A stretch of 64,000 bases of DNA, taken from NCBI GenBank assembly GCA_009781315.1, contig WQYI01000003.1, positions 1-64,000 on the forward strand. Direction: 5' to 3'. A program made the position numbers and the translations under genes. Of this stretch, positions 1,899 through 12,594 are shown piece by piece (the stretch's first letter is position 1; every line of letters starts with the position of its first letter). The notes beneath the pieces are model-generated. The model had not been told where the DNA came from and did no database searches. It worked only from the letters and a program-made list of their open reading frames with translations. The DNA comes from Candidatus Endomicrobium embiratermitis. GTDB lineage: Bacteria > Elusimicrobiota > Endomicrobiia > Endomicrobiales > Endomicrobiaceae.

Positions 1899-3155
1899 TT
1901 AGGTATTGGTGGTGGTGTCGGCAAATAATTCTTCAGGGACTGGCATTACACCCTGTCTTACTATATACTGCGAAAATTTTTGTTGAATTTGATTAATATG
2001 AGGTGCTAATATTCGTCCAAGTATATTGTCTTTAAGTTCACTAAATTTTCTGACTTCAAATTGTGTAAAATCAAATTTAATAAACTTACTATCAATAGGC
2101 CCTATGATTTTTTCGTTTGCTTTTTCTATAAATGTTCCATGTAGAAATAAAGTTTTTTTATAGTGTTTTTTAATAATAGTACATGTCTTTTGCAGCTGCA
2201 CATTGTCAGTTATATCAGTTATAATTGATTTCAAGCAATCTGGGGTTATATCCTTAGTTCTTATAGTATTTTCTTCAATTTTTTCTCCTTCAATCAAGTA
2301 TAAAATAGGATCACTTTCTCGTGCTATGTCACATTGAGCCCTTATATTTAAAAGATATTTATTATTGTGACTGCTAAATAAATCTCCTGTATATGCATTT
2401 TCAGTAGGATTATCTTCATTATGTTTCATATATCTCTCACATTCTAAAACTTTACTTAATTCTCGCGGATGACATTCATGTCCATCACATTCAAGTATAT
2501 TGCTTTCAAATTTATAATTTTGGAGCCTAGTATTAAAATTTTTGGATATAAAATCGCCAAAACTAAATATGGCGCCATGTTCATTATCAAGTTTCATTTT
2601 TTTCCATATTTTTTGTACCCAACCTGGAGAATGTTCGTATAACTCAATAAACATATTATGCATTGTTCTATTAGCTAAACTTTCCCATTCTTTAAAAACA
2701 TAAGCTGATGGTGCACTCTCTATCCAAACTTTGAGGCAATCGAATAAACCATTTGCTTCTATGTCTGCCTTTTTTTTGATAAAAATTCTTTTGTTGCTTT
2801 GTAAATCGTCATCCAATTCATCTCTTGCTTCATCTTCTTCTTTAGTGGTAAATATAAAAACAGGGCAGAAAGTTTTCTTCAATATTTGCCTTACGAACTC
2901 TTGTTTGTTTTCATTAAAAGTTATCGGTGGTATGCCTGCTGCGGGAATCAAATTCCAATCCATTACTATAAAAGAAGCGTTTAAAAATGAATCAATAATT
3001 ACCTGTGACGGGATTGTTTTATACTCAACCACTGGAAAATCATTGGTTTTAAAATTCTCTTTGATTCTGTAAATTTCAGAATCTTCATTTTCAATTTCGT
3101 CATCAATGATTACAATGAAACCTTTTAACAGTCTCTTTAGTTCATTGATATCCAT
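1899..3155 (-). CDS. Receiver-domain protein with a long unknown output region
   Basis: This is a 418-residue protein. Residues 10 to about 130 have the landmarks of a response-regulator receiver: acidic pair D18-D19 after a hydrophobic strand (FIVIIDDE), candidate phospho-acceptor Asp66 (IVMDW), hydroxyl position Thr103/104 (VFIFTTK), and a lysine strand (RIFIKKK) near 123-129. An insertion after Asp66 makes it atypical. The remaining ~290 residues match no output domain I recognise; they contain a Cys/His patch (CDGHECHPRE) near the middle and end in an SQYIVRQGVMPVPEEL-type helix. The ATG directly follows the stop codon of the kinase gene, so the two are almost certainly co-translated and are probably cognate. 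I see neither a helix-turn-helix nor a nuclease motif. Confidence 0.7.
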   Translation of the reverse strand: MDINELKRLLKGFIVIIDDEIENEDSEIYRIKENFKTNDFPVVEYKTIPSQVIIDSFLNASFIVMDWNLIPAAGIPPITFNENKQEFVRQILKKTFCPVFIFTTKEEDEARDELDDDLQSNKRIFIKKKADIEANGLFDCLKVWIESAPSAYVFKEWESLANRTMHNMFIELYEHSPGWVQKIWKKMKLDNEHGAIFSFGDFISKNFNTRLQNYKFESNILECDGHECHPRELSKVLECERYMKHNEDNPTENAYTGDLFSSHNNKYLLNIRAQCDIARESDPILYLIEGEKIEENTIRTKDITPDCLKSIITDITDNVQLQKTCTIIKKHYKKTLFLHGTFIEKANEKIIGPIDSKFIKFDFTQFEVRKFSELKDNILGRILAPHINQIQQKFSQYIVRQGVMPVPEELFADTTTNT

Positions 3156-5384
3156 TTATTCGCCATCCTCTTTTACAAACTCCATTACAAAGTTTGCTCC
3201 ATCTAAAAGTTTGTCTTTTGAAAACTCAGCTAATTCAATCGTGTAATCATAGCGGTCTAACAATTGCCTTGCAATATATAAACCCAGTCCTCGGCCGGAT
3301 TCACCTTTACCCGAATAAAACGCTTCAAAAATATAATCTTTGTCTTCAGGTTGAATACCTGGGCCGTTATCGGAGAAAATTAAACGATTATGCTCTCCGT
3401 CTAATGTAATCAATATCTGCTTGTTTTCCATGTCTATTGTTTTCAACCAATAGTATGCATTATCAAACAAATTTATAAATAATTGTAACAAGACAGCATC
3501 TGTTGTTTTAACAATCAAAGATTGTTTAGTAGAATCTATATTACAAGTTATTTTGTTATCTTTTAGTGGATTTTTATAGAAACTATATACCTTATCAATA
3601 ATATCTTTAACATTTATATTTTTTGTCCGTTGTTTTGATGACGGGAAAAGTTTTTGTATATCTTTAAATTGCGCTTTTATAATACCCAATGTACCTAAAA
3701 TAGATAAAATTTCATCATTATAATAGCTTTTGTTAATTTCGCCAGATTGCGACAATGATTTTATTACATCCTGAGCGCGTTTTATTGTTCCGTCTAGTAA
3801 AATATTAATATCGTGAGATGCTGTTTCTATTGATAATCCAACCGCGGCTAAATCTTCTGTTTTTTTAATTCTGTCGTCATATATTTTGACTTCTTTTTCA
3901 TAAATATTTTCTAATTTACTTACATTATCGAGTAAAATTTTGTCATTAGGGTAAGTTTTTTCCACATACTGCTTCATATTACTTATCAATCCTTTAGGCT
4001 TACCAACTTTATCAAATTCTTCTTTCTTTTTTTCATTTATCAAGTATTGTGCATAATCTTTCATCCTTATATATCTTAATAATATCTGAATTATGGCTAT
4101 AAATCGTCCAAATGTACCATCTTCATCAATCAGGCCTTCTCGATTTGTTTTATCCTTAAGTTTATGATTTTTTTCTTGTGTTATGTAGATACATCCTACC
4201 ACTTGATCATTGCTTAAAAACTCATCTGCTTTTTTTGTGCCTCTTATCATATCTATTTTTAGCCAATCGTCGTTTGCATCACCATAGGGCATAACCCGAA
4301 CATCATCTCTATACAAATACACTCTATGTGGTTTTACTAAGTCTATATCACTTTTATCCAAAACACATTTCCCACGTTTAGTATTAAGGTCAAAAATGTA
4401 AAATTCAAAATTAAAATCTCCGAAGTTTGTTATGTCTTGATTAGGAAAAGCTTCTTTATAATATGTCATTCCTTTTATTTCAGAGGATGACAACTCAACC
4501 GTGCGTTCTTTACCATTCAGATTAAATACAAACTTTTGTTCTTGTTCTTTGTAAATACCGTCTTTGATTTTAAGCACAGGGCTATTGTCTAACAGATTAT
4601 GCAATCTCTCCGCACTATCGTTTACACAAGGACGTGAATTACCGTTAAAAAATATGCTTACATCAAAATCAGACTGCTTATTATGTCTAAAAATCGGTTG
4701 CATTTTACTTATTTCTCTTTGCACATTTTCTATCTTTTTTTTGCTCCAATTGCTTTTTAAATTTGTTATTTCAATTCTTGTGCCATACTGTAACCCTTTT
4801 TTACTAGTTCCACCAAATGAAACTTTTCTATCAACAAACACTTTAGGCGTGTCATGCGAAAAATTAACTTCTAAGTCGTCAATAAAAAGTTCCTTCTTAA
4901 TATTATCCTCTGAAAGAAAATCATCGTCATATTTACCGAAATTATATTCAATGCTATACTCAAACTTTCCGCCTTTCAAATCTGAAGTTTTTTTTCGTGT
5001 TGTTACTGTTACGTCTTTGCCTAACTTAAATATAGCAAACCGTCCAATACCCTTTTCACCTTGAATAAACCGCCCTTTGGGAGTTCTAGGTTTTAGGCTT
5101 TTGCCCTTTAGCTTCACAGGTGTTGCAGGATTAAGCCAAGATTTTTTTATTGTTCTTCTAGCCATCCCAAAGCCATCATCTTCAATAATAATTTTCGATG
5201 TTTCTTTGAGTGAATAGTCTTCATTGAAATCTATAAAACTAACTTTAACCCAAGAAGCATCTGCATCATACGAATTTTTAATAAGTTCAATTAAAGCAAC
5301 AGTTTCATTCGTTATTAACTGTTCACCCAACATTGTTATTAGGCGCGCATAAGGCCTTATACGTAATGGCAATGGTTTATTCAT
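3156..5384 (-). CDS. Dual-GHKL ATPase: MORC/Hsp90-like N-terminus plus histidine-kinase C-terminus
   Basis: This is a 742-residue protein with two separate GHKL (Bergerat-fold) ATP-binding modules. The first has its N box at residues 33-43 (ELIKNSYDADA), G1 box DDGFGM at 69-74 and a GEKGIGRFA lid motif at 109-117, which is the pattern of Hsp90, MutL and MORC-type ATPases. A middle region of roughly 300 residues follows, then a coiled segment, a DHp-like helix with candidate phospho-acceptor His524 (ETASHDIN), an N box near 636-643 (FINLFDNAYYW), DNGPG at 672-676 and GRGLGL near 697. It therefore combines a conformational clamp ATPase and a sensor kinase in one soluble chain with no membrane segment. 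It overlaps the methyltransferase stop by 1 nt and abuts the receiver gene, so all three form one operon. The role in defence or DNA-damage sensing is inferred. Confidence 0.85.
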   Translation of the reverse strand: MNKPLPLRIRPYARLITMLGEQLITNETVALIELIKNSYDADASWVKVSFIDFNEDYSLKETSKIIIEDDGFGMARRTIKKSWLNPATPVKLKGKSLKPRTPKGRFIQGEKGIGRFAIFKLGKDVTVTTRKKTSDLKGGKFEYSIEYNFGKYDDDFLSEDNIKKELFIDDLEVNFSHDTPKVFVDRKVSFGGTSKKGLQYGTRIEITNLKSNWSKKKIENVQREISKMQPIFRHNKQSDFDVSIFFNGNSRPCVNDSAERLHNLLDNSPVLKIKDGIYKEQEQKFVFNLNGKERTVELSSSEIKGMTYYKEAFPNQDITNFGDFNFEFYIFDLNTKRGKCVLDKSDIDLVKPHRVYLYRDDVRVMPYGDANDDWLKIDMIRGTKKADEFLSNDQVVGCIYITQEKNHKLKDKTNREGLIDEDGTFGRFIAIIQILLRYIRMKDYAQYLINEKKKEEFDKVGKPKGLISNMKQYVEKTYPNDKILLDNVSKLENIYEKEVKIYDDRIKKTEDLAAVGLSIETASHDINILLDGTIKRAQDVIKSLSQSGEINKSYYNDEILSILGTLGIIKAQFKDIQKLFPSSKQRTKNINVKDIIDKVYSFYKNPLKDNKITCNIDSTKQSLIVKTTDAVLLQLFINLFDNAYYWLKTIDMENKQILITLDGEHNRLIFSDNGPGIQPEDKDYIFEAFYSGKGESGRGLGLYIARQLLDRYDYTIELAEFSKDKLLDGANFVMEFVKEDGE

Positions 5385-6655
5385 TAGTGTTTTCTCCCAC
5401 TAATCAATAATTCTTCATGGTATATTTGACGCTGTTCCTTATCAGTAGTAAACTTACCATTACTATCCCTATAAGGTGTCAATAATTTATTAGATATTTT
5501 ACGTCTATCAATTTTAATATCGTCTAAGCCACAGTCCATCATTGCTTCCACCAAATGTCTAGAATTTTCAATTTTTATACCTTTGAATTCTGTATTACCT
5601 ACTACAAAAAATACCATGCCATTTTTTTTCAACATTTTAGTGCACTTTTTTACTACTTTCTGCATATCTTCATAGTAACGAGCCACAGATTTCACTCTTG
5701 ATTTGCTTTTCATAACTTCAATTAAATCTTTAACTATTTGTTGTCCTTTTGAGTTCAACTTTAGGCCTTCAAGTTTTAAATTTTCGCTATTATGCATACT
5801 TCCAATAGTACCTTTTCTATAAGTTTTATAGTCGTCGGTATAATCTAACCATAGGGTTGATAATTGATGCAAATCCGCATATTCATAGGATGTTGCATAT
5901 GGCGGACTACTTACTATTAGATCTACCTTGGGAATATTTTTTAATGTCAAAAAATTTCCTGTTTGTATATTATATGTTTTAGACTGTTCTTTATCGCTGT
6001 TGTTTTCACTTGATTTGACAAATTTATTATATTGCTTCTTGAAAGCATCTTCAGGATTCATTGGTATTTTATTTGGATCTATTTGTGGCTTAATAGATTT
6101 AGATAACCATCTTGAGGTTGATTTCAAAATAGCTGAAAAAATACAAAGAAAAGCATCTCTATATTTACCTTTTGGTACGTTATTTATGGCATTTTTTATT
6201 TTTAGCAAACTCAAATATTTATGTTCGTCAAACCAGTACTGTAGACGTTCATTGGCATTAATGTAAGATTCTGGGCTGCAGTCTGCTTCTACAATTGTTT
6301 CAAGGATTCTTGTATAGTACTTATTTAAAACATTAATATTGTAATTTCCACTTTTTACACGAGCTATCAGGGTAGCAACAGGATTTATGTCACATCCCCA
6401 AAAACTATAATTATGTAATTTGGCTTCCAATGCCACCGTACCGCAACCACAGAAGATATCTGCAACTGATTTCACATCAACATTCTCTTTTCTTGCATAA
6501 TCAAATACTTTTGAGGCAATAAAGGCAGGAAATTTCGCAGGATATGCGTGTATGTTGTGCATATTGTTTTCTTTTTCATTACCAAAATTCCAATCAGCAT
6601 TTATTTCAACTTGAAAAGAATCTTGGTTAACATATTCTTTGCCAACTTTATTCAT
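5384..6655 (-). CDS. DNA methyltransferase (amino-MTase, SPPY type)
   Basis: This is a 423-residue soluble protein. SAM-binding motif I (ADIFCGCG, residues 66-72) precedes catalytic motif IV SPPY (250-253), and a conserved N-terminal block HNIHAYPAKFPAF (33-45) is typical of this group of site-specific DNA methyltransferases. SPPY is most often found in cytosine-N4 enzymes, but adenine-N6 activity is possible. The region between motif I and SPPY (about 90-245) probably holds the target-recognition part. It is the first gene of the operon (GAGG 6 nt before ATG) and overlaps the kinase gene by one base. No adjacent restriction endonuclease is recognisable, so this is either a restriction-modification-like system with an unrecognised effector or a marking system read by the kinase/receiver pair. 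Confidence 0.85.
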   Translation of the reverse strand: MNKVGKEYVNQDSFQVEINADWNFGNEKENNMHNIHAYPAKFPAFIASKVFDYARKENVDVKSVADIFCGCGTVALEAKLHNYSFWGCDINPVATLIARVKSGNYNINVLNKYYTRILETIVEADCSPESYINANERLQYWFDEHKYLSLLKIKNAINNVPKGKYRDAFLCIFSAILKSTSRWLSKSIKPQIDPNKIPMNPEDAFKKQYNKFVKSSENNSDKEQSKTYNIQTGNFLTLKNIPKVDLIVSSPPYATSYEYADLHQLSTLWLDYTDDYKTYRKGTIGSMHNSENLKLEGLKLNSKGQQIVKDLIEVMKSKSRVKSVARYYEDMQKVVKKCTKMLKKNGMVFFVVGNTEFKGIKIENSRHLVEAMMDCGLDDIKIDRRKISNKLLTPYRDSNGKFTTDKEQRQIYHEELLISGRKH

Positions 6656-7107: not shown

Positions 7108-7960
7108 TCACTGCGGTATTTGTTCAGGTGTTCCATTGTATTTTAATATCACTCTTTGCCTATTGTAATATAACGCATATTCATCTATTAAATCTTTTGT
7201 TTCTTGTAATGTCTTTGGTTTTCTTGCATACAAACATTCTGTCTTTAATGAACTAAAAAAACTTTCTATTGGCGCATTGTCTTTTGGCATCGCTGGTGCT
7301 GACATTGACAAGTCTATCTTATTCTCTCGTGCAATTTTCGCATATGCTAATCCGCTATATTGAAATCCTCGGTCGCTATGTAATAACGTTTCTTTCTCTT
7401 CCTTCTTTTGCCGTAATGCTGATTTTATCGTCTCTAATACCAAATTAACATTATTGTTCGTTGAATATTTATAACTTACTAATTCTCTCCTATGACAATC
7501 TAGTAATGCTGATATATATATATTACTCCTTCTTTACACTTATACTCTGTTATGTCCGTTAGCCACACTTTGTCCTGTTCTTTTTGGTCAAACTTTCTAT
7601 TTAGCTTATTCTCGTATATGTTTATGAACTTTTCACCAAAACTTTTGTAATTACTGCTCTTTTTCCTTCTTATCTTGCTTAATAAATTATATTTTACCAT
7701 CACCCTATATATCTTCTTATGGTTTATCTTTTTTTCTCTTCCTCTATTTATCTCAAAACTTACTTTCCTATATCCGTAACTCTCTTTAAACCCTTTCTTT
7801 ATCTCTTTTATTTCTTTATATAATTCTTCGTCGCATTCTTCTTTCTTTTCTATATTCTTATGCTTGTAATATCCACTCTCAGATACTCCCAATTCTTTAC
7901 ATAAATCTCTTACTCTATACTTCTCTCTTAACTTCTCTTTACCTGCAAATTTTACTTTTT
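7108..7960 (-). pseudogene. IS3 transposase orfB (DDE integrase core), frameshifted
   Basis: Two frames join into one IS3 orfB product. The upstream part contains SESGYYKH, SYGYRKV and the first catalytic Asp in VWLTDITEY. The downstream part contains the second Asp in LLHSDRGFQYSG and the Glu in PIESFFSSLK, ending near YYNRQR. The break lies at 7510-7522, in a (TA)n run of the codons for VIYI: a 2-nt change shifts the frame and creates a stop. With those 2 nt removed the reading continues through a normal ISALLDCHRRELVSY stretch. Upstream, orfB lies in the -1 frame relative to orfA and would be expressed by slippage on the A9 run at about 7957-7965. Confidence 0.85.
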
Positions 7961-8233
7961 TTTTGACAATTCACTTAATACCTTCTGAATATCCCTCAAC
8001 ATCTTGTTCTCTCTCTCTAATCTCTTTATCTTCTCTTCTATACACTCTTTTCCCTTTTTCTTACTTTCAAAACTTTCTATTCCTCTTTCTCTATATCTGT
8101 TACTTATTCTCACTATTGTCCTTTGGCATACTCCATACTCTCTCGCCAATTCATTTGTTGACTTACCTTCTTCAAACCTTTTTACACATACTTCTTTCTT
8201 TTTTTCGTTACTTAACTTCTTTGCCTCTTTCAT
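7952..8233 (-). CDS. IS3 transposase orfA (DNA-binding subunit)
   Basis: This is a 93-residue basic protein with a ribosome-binding site AAAGGAG about 8 nt before ATG. It has a helix-turn-helix (STNELAREYGVCQRTIVRI, about residues 25-43) and a C-terminal heptad-like segment (IEEKIKRLERENKMLRDIQ), the usual IS3 orfA architecture for binding the terminal repeats and dimerising. It ends in KKK-stop on the A-rich slippery site, where -1 slippage would fuse it to orfB. It appears intact, but its partner frame is broken. Confidence 0.85.
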   Translation of the reverse strand: MKEAKKLSNEKKKEVCVKRFEEGKSTNELAREYGVCQRTIVRISNRYRERGIESFESKKKGKECIEEKIKRLERENKMLRDIQKVLSELSKKK

Positions 8234-8312
8234 GTGGTTTCTCCTTTTTTCATTATACCACATGACTCTTTCTATTCTCTACTTTCTTGGGGGCAGTTCA
8301 ACGTCCCCTTGA

Positions 8313-8609
8313 CCACTAGGCAGTTTTTACAATCAGAATGCTACCAAAAATGAAACTTTAATAAATGCCCTTGTTACAAGTCATAAATGGAATAAAGAAG
8401 TTTTGTATGAAAAGAAATCGGTAAGAGAAATAATGACTAGAGAAAAGCTTACCAAACGCTTTGTAGCGCGAATGATAAACCTATCATTTTTGTCGCCAAA
8501 CATAGTAACCGCAATACTGCAAGGTAAACAACCGCCTGATTTAACCGTAAGAAAACTGCTGGAGATTAATACAGCTGATTGGCAAAAACAAGAAGAGCAA
8601 ATATTTTAA
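8313..8609 (+). pseudogene. Serine recombinase, C-terminal remnant
   Basis: The open stretch reads NQNATKNETLINALVTSHKW..., then KLTKRFVARMINLSFLSPNI and VTAILQGKQPPDLTV. It matches the extreme C-terminus of large serine (resolvase-type) site-specific recombinases, where a helix-turn-helix is followed by a conserved LAFLAPDIVEAIL-GxQP block. The catalytic N-terminal domain and recombinase domain are absent: the in-frame sequence stops at 8310, right at the border of the IS3 element. No matching 5' part is visible on the other side of the IS, so more than a simple insertion has happened. It indicates that an integrative element once sat here. Confidence 0.75.
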
Positions 8610-9406
8610 TATTTTTCTTCAATATATCCTTTTTCTTTCATCTCTTTATATTTTTTTAGTACTTCTTTTGAAACTACCAAAGCTGTACTTATTGCACATA
8701 ATTCATCGTAAGGACTAAACTCTTTTTTCCAATATTTAAACTCTGGATATTGAATGTTATTATTAAGGTGATGATGTTTTACATGACAGTATTTTGCATA
8801 TACTACTTTCATAATCTTTTCTTCTACAAACTCATCAACCATAGACTGTACTGTGCATTTTCGTTTTGGGAACTCTTTATATGATTCTCGTAATATTTTG
8901 ATTTTACCTGTGTAATTATTCTTTTCTGATTTTAAGAAATTTATAACATCAGTATAGTTTTGCCCTAGCTTAATATATTTATTTCCAAACTTTTCCAGTA
9001 TGTTTACGTAAACTTCTATTTGTTTCGGGTTAGGAGCTCCTAACTCGGCTTCTCTATATTCTAGTGCCAAGCCATTTATTGTTAAGAAATCGATATAATA
9101 TTCCGCTTTATTATTCTTTATACAATAAAGCATTAAAGACATACCTTCGACCATCATACCAGCTAAGGTTATTATTTCTGCCTCAAAATATTTTAGAGAT
9201 AGTAGATATATAGCTTCCGCCGTTATTGTTAAGTTTTCCAAAAAATTAGCTACTAATAAAGTATCATAAGTTTTATATTTACGAGGTTTTCTTTGCATTT
9301 GCTGCATTTCCAAGATTACACTTCTTAAATGAGCTAAATTCTTTTCCTTCCATCTCAAAGTGTATTCTGGTGTTGGTAAGTCACGGGGTATGTCATTATC
9401 TGTCAT
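8606..9406 (-). CDS. Helical protein, possibly DUF5677-like
   Basis: This is a 266-residue, mostly alpha-helical soluble protein with AAAGGA upstream of the ATG. Segments such as LLVANFLENLTITAEAIYLL and EIITLAGMMVEGMSLMLYCI, and a late Tyr-His cluster (YAKYCHVKHHHLNNN), resemble DUF5677-type proteins, in which a conserved His/Tyr region follows helical repeats. The match is a recollection of pattern, not a computed hit. It lies 35 nt downstream of the DUF2971 gene on the same strand, so the two probably form an operon. Its last 4 nt overlap the end of the recombinase remnant on the opposite strand. The function is unknown; the island context suggests defence or stress. Confidence 0.5.
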   Translation of the reverse strand: MTDNDIPRDLPTPEYTLRWKEKNLAHLRSVILEMQQMQRKPRKYKTYDTLLVANFLENLTITAEAIYLLSLKYFEAEIITLAGMMVEGMSLMLYCIKNNKAEYYIDFLTINGLALEYREAELGAPNPKQIEVYVNILEKFGNKYIKLGQNYTDVINFLKSEKNNYTGKIKILRESYKEFPKRKCTVQSMVDEFVEEKIMKVVYAKYCHVKHHHLNNNIQYPEFKYWKKEFSPYDELCAISTALVVSKEVLKKYKEMKEKGYIEEKY

Positions 9407-9441
9407 TTGGAATCCTTTAAATTACTTATAAGCTATAACAT

Positions 9442-10458
9442 TTATATGTAAGATGCTGAAGATTTTCTGACAGCAATATCTTGTATATTAAAGCCATTAG
9501 TAATCAAGAATTTATGAATATTTGGTATAGCAACACTGCACTTTGGCCCTAAAATTATTTCATTGATTAGATTACCATGTTTTGAATTAGTGCTTAATGG
9601 ATATTTATAATAAGAAACTATGTCTCTGCCGTTATAGTAGTAATCATAATTTAACGTACATTTATCTTTTTTGAGACATTTGTCTTTTTCATTACATTCA
9701 GCGCCAATATTGTAATACATGCGCCATTCCAATTCTTCTTTAAATGCCGGGTTTTTATATATTTTCATTTTTTCTAATAAAATATCTAACAGGGCTTTGT
9801 TATCAATATTTAAAAGTATATTCATTAAAAATTTGTCGAGAATATCTCCGATATCATTATTAAGATCTTTGTTTGCATCAACATATAACATTTCTACAGA
9901 TTGTATCTTTTTGTTTTCTGTATCCAATAATGACTTAGTATTGAAACCAATAGACACACCCTTCCCATCATCAGCATATGCTCTCCATTGGCTTAATATA
10001 TCTCCTGTAAGTGAAAAACAAGCAATATGTCCAATACTTACATTTTTTATTAATGTTTCTTTAATATAACTGTAAAAATTTTTATGCATTTGTATTTTTT
10101 GATTTTTATATTGATCAAATGTTGTCGGAAATGAGCTTTTATATAATTTAGCCTTAGTAATAAATTCATTGAATGCTTCTTTTTGAATACCTAACTTATC
10201 AAATTCTTCTTTTATATTGTCTTCAAAATTTTCGCTTAAGATAATTTTATTACTGTTTTCGTATTCTGTCTTTAGAATTTCCGGATTTTTCTCTATATTA
10301 TTTATCGCATCACTAATAATAATCATAATAATTTTGATTGTATAAATTAATTCTTCAGAGTCATTTGTCGTAAGCATATTTGTCAACCACAATTCACGAC
10401 TTTTTATTATTTTCATAAAATTATCCACGCTACAATAATGATAAACAGTATTTGTCAT
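9442..10458 (-). CDS. DUF2971 family protein
   Basis: This is a 338-residue soluble protein with GGGAG 8 nt before ATG. It opens with VYHYCSVDNFMKIIKSRELWLTN, in which the YHY/W pattern is typical of DUF2971. The middle holds the diagnostic block ACFSLTGDILSQWRAYADDGKGVSIGF and the end has EIILGPKCS. The family has a fold related to ADP-ribosyl-type or toxin-like domains and is frequent in defence islands; its biochemical activity is not established. A Cys-rich stretch (CNEKDKCLKKDKC) near residue 265 is unusual and could bind metal. It probably forms an operon with the DUF5677-like gene downstream. Confidence 0.8.
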   Translation of the reverse strand: MTNTVYHYCSVDNFMKIIKSRELWLTNMLTTNDSEELIYTIKIIMIIISDAINNIEKNPEILKTEYENSNKIILSENFEDNIKEEFDKLGIQKEAFNEFITKAKLYKSSFPTTFDQYKNQKIQMHKNFYSYIKETLIKNVSIGHIACFSLTGDILSQWRAYADDGKGVSIGFNTKSLLDTENKKIQSVEMLYVDANKDLNNDIGDILDKFLMNILLNIDNKALLDILLEKMKIYKNPAFKEELEWRMYYNIGAECNEKDKCLKKDKCTLNYDYYYNGRDIVSYYKYPLSTNSKHGNLINEIILGPKCSVAIPNIHKFLITNGFNIQDIAVRKSSASYI

Positions 10459-10785
10459 TTCGCTAACTCCCAGTATCTAAAATTGCAAACCTTTAATAAG
10501 GATATTATAATATATACGCAATAGATAAACAAAGAACAGAAGATATCAAACTTTTTATTTAATTTTTCCTGAATTTTTCAATTTACTCTACACTGTAGAG
10601 CAAATTTCAATTATGATATTATACTATTATAATCAATTGTATTCTTCTGCGAGTTCTTGTAAATATAATTCAAGAATTTTCAATTTAGCAGGCGCTGCCT
10701 GCTAAATTAAATTCATCCATTAAGTTGATCTTGGATCAACACAATATGACTACACTAACGTATCAAAATATTGTAATATGTATGT
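10459..10785. other. Divergent intergenic region with three palindromes
   Basis: These 327 bases separate two divergent units. The DUF2971 side has an AT-rich promoter-like stretch (10500-10530) with TATAAT reading leftwards. The middle and right hold the three palindromes listed separately. On the right, TAATAT at 10774-10779 ends 6 nt before the ATG of the DUF488-fusion gene and could be its -10 box. Confidence 0.6.
10586..10740. promoter_or_regulatory. Three palindromes upstream of the DUF488-fusion cassette
   Basis: CTCTACA-c-TGTAGAG is at 10586-10600 (7-bp arms). AATTTAGCAGGC-gct-GCCTGCTAAATT is at 10682-10708 (12-bp perfect arms). GTTGATC-ttg-GATCAAC is at 10724-10740 (7-bp perfect arms). 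None is followed by a T-run. Their tight clustering before an operon that starts with an antitoxin-like domain suggests operators for autoregulation; an RNA-level role is the alternative. Confidence 0.45.
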
Positions 10786-11670
10786 ATGTTCTACAGAAAA
10801 AAAATATTATTAAATTTGCTTGACGCCTTTGGCGGCAAATTGGATAAAATTTCTTTTACAAAACTCTTATTTCTCTTTTGTGTATCCAATGAAAAAAATC
10901 GGCAGTATGAATTTGTTCCGTATCAATACGGAGCTTTTTCTTTTACTGCGTATTCCGATATAAATGGACTAAAAAGAGAAGGTATGGTTTATGAAGGCGA
11001 TAATTATTTTGCATTGCAGCAATTTGATAAGCAATCCTATAAAATAACTGAAGATGATAATGAAAGAATTGACAGCCTTTACCGGCAGTTTAATGGTAAA
11101 ACTTCTGATGATTTGATGGAAATAACCTATGCAAATTATCCATACTATGCCAAAAATAGTAAAAAGAAAGATCTAATAACGGCAGAAATAAAAAATGCTA
11201 TTAAGACCGCTATTTCAGAAGATAATAGTACAACTTTGTTTGATATTGGTTATGAGGGCAAAAGTCTGGAAGCATATCTGAATTTATTGATAACAAACAA
11301 TATAAAAACTCTTGTTGATGTAAGAAAAAATCCTATAAGTATGAAATACGGGTTTTCTAAAGGCTTTTTGTCAAAAAGAACCAACGACTTAGGTATTGAA
11401 TACCTCCATGTTCCCGAACTTGGTATAGAATCAGACAAGAGGCAATCTTTAAACTCTTTTGAAGATTATCAAAATCTATTTGCAAATTATGAAGACACTA
11501 CATTAAAAAGAAATATTAAAAGCGTAGAAAAAGTTCACGACATTTTAATGCAAGATAGAAGAATTGCGCTTACCTGCTTTGAGGCTGATAAAAATTACTG
11601 TCATAGATATAGAGTGGTCAATTGTATAAATAATCTTTATCCTAATGAATTTGAAACGGAACATTTATAA
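10786..11670 (+). CDS. Panacea-like / DUF488 fusion protein
   Basis: This is a 294-residue protein in two parts. Residues 1 to about 110 (KISFTKLLFLFC, FVPYQYGAFSF, LKREGMV) resemble Panacea/DUF4065-type antitoxin domains. Residues about 150-290 form a DUF488 domain: LFDIGYEGKSLEAYLNLL, LVDVRKNPISMKYGFSK, then ALTCFEADKNYCHRYRV, the conserved C-x-E-x(6)-CHR signature. DUF488 function is unproven; the Cys and His pattern suggests a catalytic or metal site. No ribosome-binding site is evident and a TAATAT box is only 6 nt upstream, so the mRNA may be leaderless. It is followed without a gap by the KTYP-motif gene. Family calls are from motif memory. Confidence 0.75.
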   Translation: MFYRKKILLNLLDAFGGKLDKISFTKLLFLFCVSNEKNRQYEFVPYQYGAFSFTAYSDINGLKREGMVYEGDNYFALQQFDKQSYKITEDDNERIDSLYRQFNGKTSDDLMEITYANYPYYAKNSKKKDLITAEIKNAIKTAISEDNSTTLFDIGYEGKSLEAYLNLLITNNIKTLVDVRKNPISMKYGFSKGFLSKRTNDLGIEYLHVPELGIESDKRQSLNSFEDYQNLFANYEDTTLKRNIKSVEKVHDILMQDRRIALTCFEADKNYCHRYRVVNCINNLYPNEFETEHL

Positions 11671-12456
11671 ATGAAAGAAACAAAGAAAATCCTTATAACC
11701 GTTAAAACCTATCCGACTCCTTCAAAAAAATATGATGAACTTGTCTGTACAGCTGGTATTACTGAAGATGGCAAATGGATTAGATTATATCCAATAGAAT
11801 TTAGAAAACTTCCTTATGATAAACAATATAAAAAGTATGATTGGGTTGAAGTTGTAGTAGAAAGAAATGATTCTGATTTCAGAAAAGAAAGTTTTAGACC
11901 TATAAGCGAATGTAAGATAGTGAAAAGTATTGGGACTGAAAATAATTGGGCTGAAAGACGTGCAGTTTTAAAGAACGTAAAAACCTATACAAATCTAAAA
12001 AAGTTGATTGCTGATTCAAAAACGCCAAACTTTAAATCTTTAGCATTATTTAAACCAACAAAAATAATAGATTTTATTTATGAAGAACAAGACCCTAATT
12101 GGAGCAGAGAAGAAAATAAGCAACTTGAGCTGTTTTTTTCAAAAGATTTTAAACGCGTAGAAAAATTACCGTTTAAGTTTAAGTATGTCTTTGAAGACGA
12201 TGAAGGTAAAACATCTAAACTATCTATTACAGATTGGGAAATTGGTGCGTTGTTTTTAAAATATAAGAAAGACCATAAATTAGCTTGTCAAAAAGTCAAA
12301 GAAAAATATTTTGATGACTTTGCTCACAAGAAAGATTTACATTTCTTTTTAGGCACAACAAAAGACCATCACAATACCGCAAGAAATCCATTCATTATCA
12401 TCGGTACTTTTCATCCAAACAAAACTGTAGAAGATAAGCAGGGAATATTGTTTTAA
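11671..12456 (+). CDS. KTYP-motif protein of the DUF488 cassette, unknown function
   Basis: This is a 261-residue basic soluble protein whose ATG immediately follows the stop codon of the DUF488-fusion gene, so translation is coupled. The N-terminus has KKILITVKTYPTPSKKYDELVCTAGI and GKWIRLYPIEFR, a small barrel-like region that I have seen associated with DUF488 partners but cannot name. Further on come WAERR, FKPTKI and a C-terminal FFLGTTKDHHNTARNPFIIIGTFHP, whose conserved-looking His residues could be functional. No helix-turn-helix or nuclease motif is obvious. I infer that the two proteins act together. Confidence 0.6.
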   Translation: MKETKKILITVKTYPTPSKKYDELVCTAGITEDGKWIRLYPIEFRKLPYDKQYKKYDWVEVVVERNDSDFRKESFRPISECKIVKSIGTENNWAERRAVLKNVKTYTNLKKLIADSKTPNFKSLALFKPTKIIDFIYEEQDPNWSREENKQLELFFSKDFKRVEKLPFKFKYVFEDDEGKTSKLSITDWEIGALFLKYKKDHKLACQKVKEKYFDDFAHKKDLHFFLGTTKDHHNTARNPFIIIGTFHPNKTVEDKQGILF

Positions 12457-12458
12457 CT

Positions 12459-12477
12459 CGGGGCACACTGTGCCCCG
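12459..12477 (+). terminator. GC-rich hairpin after the DUF488 cassette
   Basis: CGGGGCAC-act-GTGCCCCG forms a perfect 8-bp stem (9 bp on DNA) starting just after the stop codon. There is no T-run, so it is either a weak or Rho-assisted terminator or an mRNA 3'-end stabiliser. Confidence 0.5.
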
Positions 12478-12594
12478 AAGCTTCTTGAGATGAGGCAATT
12501 GTGCACACAGTGTGTTCACTTTTCTAAATTTGACCTTTCCCTCGAAAGAAGTTCCATTTCCAAGTTAATGAAAACGTGGTAAAATACCAACAAA

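Follow-up and report, generated by a model that had tools for sequence, protein, structure and literature searches.

Two adjacent genes, here called A and B, lie on the forward strand at positions 10786-12456 of the window, the whole 64,000-nucleotide stretch of DNA that was analysed. The features of the pair are the following.

10786..11670, forward strand: gene A, 294 amino acids, a Panacea-like domain fused to DUF488 (PADLOC PDC-M19A; PHROG 14939)
10786..11220, forward strand: Panacea-like N-terminal domain of A, approximately residues 1-145 (from SocA_Panacea, hhalign and Foldseek)
11266..11619, forward strand: DUF488 domain of A, residues 161-278 (Pfam PF04343, E 4.3e-23)
11575..11607, forward strand: putative active-site motif of A, C264-x-E266-x(5)-C272-H273-R274, invariant in 43 relatives
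11671..12456, forward strand: gene B, 261 amino acids, a predicted tandem OB-fold protein (PADLOC PDC-M19B; PHROG 25907)
11677..12087, forward strand: first OB-like half of B, boundaries approximate, with C26-x-A-G, R38, P41 and D69-x-R71-x-E73-S74 invariant
12166..12417, forward strand: second OB-like half of B, boundaries approximate, with D188, E190 and G228 invariant
12458..12478, no strand: perfect 10-bp inverted repeat with a 1-nt loop and without a T-run, just 3' of the B stop codon; possibly a transcription end

The genes and their surroundings

The two reading frames of the first-pass annotation, in which B starts directly after the stop codon of A, were confirmed from the sequence. 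At the junction (11668-11673) the TAA of A is followed straight away by the ATG of B, with zero spacing. In a PADLOC profile search A matches PDC-M19A over residues 1-294 (E 1.5e-103) and B matches PDC-M19B over nearly its full length (E 2.8e-104), so that neither gene is a chance open reading frame. Each also has a match among the functionally uncharacterised phage families, A to phrog_14939 (E 3.7e-67) and B to phrog_25907 (E 3.9e-69). A search of NCBIfam gave a model for neither. With both profiles matched and the genes adjacent, the window pair is a member of the PADLOC candidate defence pair PDC-M19, from which no difference was found. Because of these full-length matches the pair is a catalogued one, though mechanistically undescribed. 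The PDC-M19 models give neither fold nor mechanism, and a literature search found no paper naming PDC-M19 and no biochemical or phage-challenge study of the DUF488/B family. The PADLOC candidates were collected by guilt-by-embedding and the majority are unvalidated (PMC12988326).

The pair had been described as standing at the end of an island containing DUF2971, Fic and methyltransferase-type genes. These genes are present, the Fic gene as a fragment, but the contig starts at window position 1 and the left edge of the island is thus not visible. The Fic fragment, whose N-terminal part is missing, is found right where the contig begins (104-640, forward strand). It is followed on the reverse strand by three tightly packed genes, overlapping or abutting one another (1899-6655), which perhaps form a methyltransferase-GHKL defence or restriction system:

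5384-6655, reverse strand: N6/N4-type DNA methyltransferase
3156-5384, reverse strand: protein with two GHKL/HATPase domains
1899-3155, reverse strand: 418-amino-acid partner protein

A broken IS3-type transposase, read from the sequence, occupies 7108-8263 on the reverse strand (orfA at 7952-8263, pieces of orfB at 7500-7892 and 7108-7443). On the same strand, at 8606-10458, lie genes for a DUF2971 protein (9442-10458; a weak match to PADLOC PDC-S31) and a DUF5677-like protein (8606-9406). A perfect 12-bp inverted repeat with a 3-nt loop (10682-10708) precedes A by about 80 nt. This 27-bp palindrome was considered as a conserved operator and rejected, since it occurs only once in the genome and five relatives lack it in front of A.

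Folds and motifs of the two proteins

The DUF488 domain of A, already recognised in the first-pass annotation, scores 82.7 bits against PF04343, well above the cut-off of 22.2. Among the aligned relatives of A, PF04343 is matched by 43 of 43 and PF22751, the "Active DUF488-N3 subclade", by 42 of 43, counting matches at E up to 0.1. Residues G155, Y156, D178, R180, G213, C264, E266, C272, H273 and R274 are invariant in the 43 relatives. The cysteine signature had been given as C-x-E-x(6)-CHR, which is off by one: the sequence reads C264-F-E266-A-D-K-N-Y-C272-H-R, that is C-x-E-x(5)-C-H-R, and the conserved motif is intact in A.

Structure prediction, which had been proposed as a check on both proteins, gave AlphaFold models with a pLDDT of 96.7 for A and 92.7 for B (pTM 0.90 for B). 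In the model of A, C264 ends the strand 259-264 and H273 starts the helix 273-284. A cysteine at a strand end with CHR at the start of a helix, as modelled here, is how active sites of the cysteine-phosphatase or rhodanese type are arranged. The Foldseek matches of A to PTP folds are weak (4kyr, 3ro1), and no solved structure related to DUF488 by sequence was found. Burroughs, Aravind and co-workers (2023) reportedly assigned DUF488 to the rhodanese-phosphatase superfamily, and are said to have predicted from comparative genomics that it has DNA-end-processing roles in virus-host conflict.

The N-terminal domain of A had been called antitoxin-like. Its score against SocA_Panacea (PF13274) is 18.7 bits, under the Pfam cut-off of 25.7, which does not support membership of the Panacea family. 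The likeness itself held: hhalign against true Panacea proteins from the phylum to which the window belongs gave a probability of 55.8% (P 1.1e-4; at most 0.3% in 38 shuffled controls), which moderately supports a remote homology. In addition, the N-terminal model matches chain D of the Mycobacterium tuberculosis DarTG complex (7yk3_D) with a Foldseek probability of 1.00 and a TM-score of 0.54 over the target. "Panacea-like" is therefore a fair label. The same domain also matches the C-terminal end of the PADLOC model of type I specificity subunits (E 6.9e-6), which hints that some HsdS proteins may carry Panacea-like tails.

A Pfam search of B gave nothing credible, neither a family nor a match to DuOB, and B belongs to no known housekeeping family, an identity that would have spoken against the first reading. 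The AlphaFold model of B, compared by Foldseek with the PDB, resembles the OB-fold arrays of RPA, Teb1 and HIN-200 domains (E down to 2.4e-5) and, in a viral structure library, baculovirus LEF-3 (E 5.6e-5). On this basis B is predicted to be a tandem OB-fold protein and to bind single-stranded DNA. The whole chain superposes loosely onto solved structures, with TM-scores over the query of about 0.2-0.47; the assignment is thus one of fold class, two OB folds, and of no particular family or function. The second OB-like half has modelled strands at 168-175, 181-186, 224-229 and 241-247.

Independent evidence came from hhalign, which aligns B with the Pfam "Dual OB-containing domain" DuOB (PF22557) at 90.5% probability (P 1.4e-6; at most 0.5% in 40 shuffled controls). 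The C-T-A-G...W-I-R-L of B falls on the C-V-x-G...R of DuOB (its CVxGxD...R motif), and the first OB-like half is the region aligned with this motif. The best relatives of B reach 18.7 bits against DuOB, under the Pfam cut-off of 27. By profile-profile comparison B is a distant relative of DuOB and, by Pfam's cut-off, not a member. The residues invariant across the relatives of B include C26, R38, P41, D69, R71, E73, R96, D188, E190 and G228. Of the two sequence blocks singled out in the first-pass annotation, KTYP is nearly conserved among these relatives, with P15 invariant. The other, DHHNTARNP, is a loop restricted to one clade and missing from much of the family, which rules it out as a catalytic motif.

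DuOB genes keep similar company. One or two DUF488 genes adjoin them in eight of nine loci inspected, in two phyla. In loci L151-L158 DuOB has one or two in-line DUF488 genes, the order being DUF488-DUF488-DuOB in L151-L153 and DuOB followed by two DUF488 genes in L157 and L158. These operons (PF22557 with PF04343/PF22751) are like the window pair in that the gene of a dual-OB protein adjoins DUF488 and in the common C-x-x-G...R motif. They differ in usually having two DUF488 genes where the window has one, and B is longer than DuOB and below its cut-off, while A has the Panacea-like domain. No DuOB relatives were found in viral contigs, and PF22557 had no match in 30 pair-carrying genomes.

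Pairing and mobility in relatives

The expectation that the two genes would not usually be found apart held. A DUF488 gene adjoins B in 127 of 128 loci whose B protein has at least 230 amino acids, counting from B towards A; many DUF488 proteins occur without B. The sole exception is a Sulfolobus plasmid, and in its Saccharolobus relative a ParB-HTH-DUF488 fusion gene lies directly upstream of B. The order is A-B in 101 of the paired loci, B-A in 3 and tail-to-tail in 23. A quick tree of B made with FastTree shows about five switches of gene order, with the adjacency retained. In genomic A-B loci B mostly starts -4 to +9 nt from the stop codon of A, a spacing that would suit translational coupling. 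The 3' ends of convergent pairs range from 8 nt apart to 62 nt overlapping in 25 of 26 cases (overlaps up to 62 nt occur, among others, in loci L017, L022, L026 and L045-L059), an unusual antiparallel arrangement that is conserved.

Two Sulfolobales plasmid loci (L164, 2936-5352; L018, 4001-5361) carry a small gene 3' of the B homologue. To the eye it shows a D...ExK pattern like that of PD-(D/E)XK nucleases, and it has no Pfam or PDB match. In L164 a ParB-HTH-DUF488 fusion precedes the B homologue.

The front domain of A is exchangeable. In its place the counterpart on a Streptomyces plasmid has an XRE-type HTH, those in two viral contigs have HTH_59, and that on the Saccharolobus plasmid has ParB with HTH as the N-terminal module. 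The partners of B in proteobacteria, actinobacteria and Calothrix are DUF488 proteins of about 150 amino acids in which the N-terminal domain is absent. The conserved core is thus DUF488 together with the dual-OB protein B. Archaeal ParB-CTPase/DUF488 fusions (PMC12704722) resemble A in combining DUF488 with an N-terminal module, and on the Saccharolobus plasmid a B homologue adjoins; their module is ParB with HTH, whereas that of A is Panacea-like. CTP binding has been reported for an archaeal DUF488-HTH ParB fusion (PMC12704722).

Homologues of B occur in 7 Gordonia phage records, on 23 bacterial and archaeal plasmids, some of them conjugative, in 43 viral contigs and, in representative genomes, at over 570 places; the 80 best-scoring of these, mostly from Bacteroidota, were retained. 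Within its own phylum the pair is patchy, being present in 10 of 295 genomes, and it was found in none of the three same-genus genomes searched. The nearest named relative of B is from an Endomicrobium MAG. Mobility, a further point raised for checking, was borne out. Of 17 neighbouring window genes sought in four same-phylum relatives, whose B proteins are 60-85% identical, none accompanies the pair and only A and B match; nor is there synteny with the right-hand neighbours in the relatives compared. As read from the sequence, the pair lies amid phage-like replication genes in a prophage-like region in one genome (G007) and amid housekeeping genes in two others (G132, G122). Copies in two more (G136, G170) contain stop codons, as repeated gain and loss of the genes would lead one to expect.

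In the Gordonia phages B begins where the immunity repressor gene ends, with the DUF488 gene tail-to-tail to B and an integrase close by. The same region of other Gordonia prophages holds lysogenically expressed defence genes, among them the unrelated system of CarolAnn (PMC6426606). The CarolAnn gp43/gp44 defence was considered as a tested homologue and rejected: CarolAnn gp43 is a proposed membrane ion channel, Nymphadora is among the phages under attack, and nothing but the gene numbers coincides (PMC6426606).

Type I restriction genes are present in the flanks of 15 of the 80 best-scoring genomic loci. In 13 of the 80 they are immediate neighbours, within about 0.5 kb and always co-directional with the pair, lying before it, after it or on both sides. 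Pfam identifies representative neighbours as HsdR, HsdM and HsdS. A random spread of hsd genes across the flanks would bring few of them into contact with the pair. The adjacency agrees with the guilt-by-embedding origin of the PADLOC candidates (PMC12988326).

Proposed role and alternatives

The pair is, with a probability of about 0.5, a mobile two-component nucleic-acid-processing module of DUF488 and a dual-OB protein. It would most likely serve as an accessory against phages or mobile elements, the OB protein bringing the enzyme to DNA. The two OB folds of B would bind single-stranded DNA or DNA ends and bring to them the catalytic-cysteine DUF488 domain of A, with its predicted phosphatase/rhodanese-like fold. 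There A may act on a terminus, the DNA end as substrate being taken from the reported prediction of Burroughs, Aravind and co-workers (2023), or it may take off or transfer a group such as a nucleotide, sugar or phosphate. Its front domain, which is exchangeable and here Panacea-like, could serve as a sensor or a protein-docking part.

This reading is supported by the survival of the pairing (127/128) through about five changes of gene order, by the resemblance of B to DNA-binding tandem OB proteins in two structure libraries together with its homology to DuOB, and by the invariance of C264, E266, C272, H273, R274, D178 and R180. It is also supported by the type I restriction genes at 13 of 80 loci, the phage, plasmid and prophage copies, the patchiness and the PDC-M19 listing. 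The pairing, the mobility, the fold and homology of B, the intact cysteine motif, the exchange of domains and the restriction neighbours come directly from the computations; we infer DNA binding, catalysis, substrate and defence role from them.

The first-pass annotation had suggested a toxin-antitoxin or two-component effector arrangement. The conserved, mobile two-gene unit of effector type in a defence-like setting agrees with the second part of this suggestion. The first part, a Panacea-like domain that keeps either B or the DUF488 domain fused to it neutralised, with released toxicity aborting phage infection, we consider unlikely. In its favour, Panacea domains are known to neutralise many toxins unrelated to one another and are found near mobile elements (PMC8832971), and the genes of A and B abut; the reading thus keeps some weight. 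The window pair is like the PanAT systems (PMC8832971) in its Panacea-like N-terminus, its two adjacent genes and its mobility, and like DarTG in the structural match to a chain of the 7yk3 complex. However, the domain in A is fused to an enzyme-like domain, lies under the Pfam cut-off and is dispensable across relatives, and its partner is no recognisable toxin; nor does a Pfam search of the pair find the macro domain or the DarT-like ADP-ribosyltransferase of DarTG. The antitoxin domain of a type II system would be kept wherever its partner occurs, whereas many partners of the same B family lack the Panacea-like domain or have HTH or ParB instead. The domain is thus outside the conserved core, and this dispensability is why the toxin-antitoxin reading was set back. 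Moreover, the 25 of 26 convergent pairs that meet within a few bases or overlap are unlike an antitoxin-toxin operon, and B, a predicted tandem OB-fold protein of 261 amino acids, is no typical small toxin.

A little less likely again is that the pair is an accessory of type I restriction, working on the ends or intermediates that HsdR produces from DNA or guarding the host, its lone travel elsewhere being incidental. The co-directional hsd genes, amid, before or after which the pair stands, are what would be expected of such an accessory, but 67 of the 80 loci and the window have no adjacent hsd genes, and phage and plasmid copies stand alone. It is improbable that the pair serves mobile elements in counter-defence, protecting or repairing their single-stranded DNA during entry. 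Its frequency on conjugative plasmids and in phages, the tandem OB fold and the single-stranded DNA-binding protein genes nearby in two plasmids would suit this role; against it, very many loci are chromosomal, several within restriction operons, and the phage copies lie beside lysogeny genes, a known site of prophage defence genes (PMC6426606). An ordinary regulatory or metabolic pair with no part in conflict, as the HTH and ParB fusions might suggest through DNA binding or regulation, is very improbable in view of the patchy, mobile and stop-codon-degraded copies in relatives and the restriction neighbours.

The nucleic-acid-processing module, as preferred here, might be extended further. 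DUF488 with a dual-OB protein would then be a general DNA-terminus-processing immune core of bacteria and archaea with exchangeable modules (Panacea-like, HTH, ParB-CTPase), and its Panacea-type version would back up type I restriction from within as a second line, processing cut phage DNA so as to make it unrejoinable. This extension is doubtful.

To what is catalogued for the pair the present analysis adds that B is a predicted dual-OB protein linked to DuOB, that A has a front domain which can be exchanged, that gene order has changed repeatedly and that type I restriction genes adjoin some of the loci. A vague toxin-antitoxin guess is thereby turned into a testable claim, in which an OB-fold partner brings a cysteine enzyme to DNA. 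Should this be true, the nesting of the pair in restriction operons would be explained, and bacterial immunity would gain a chemistry that modifies DNA or processes its ends.
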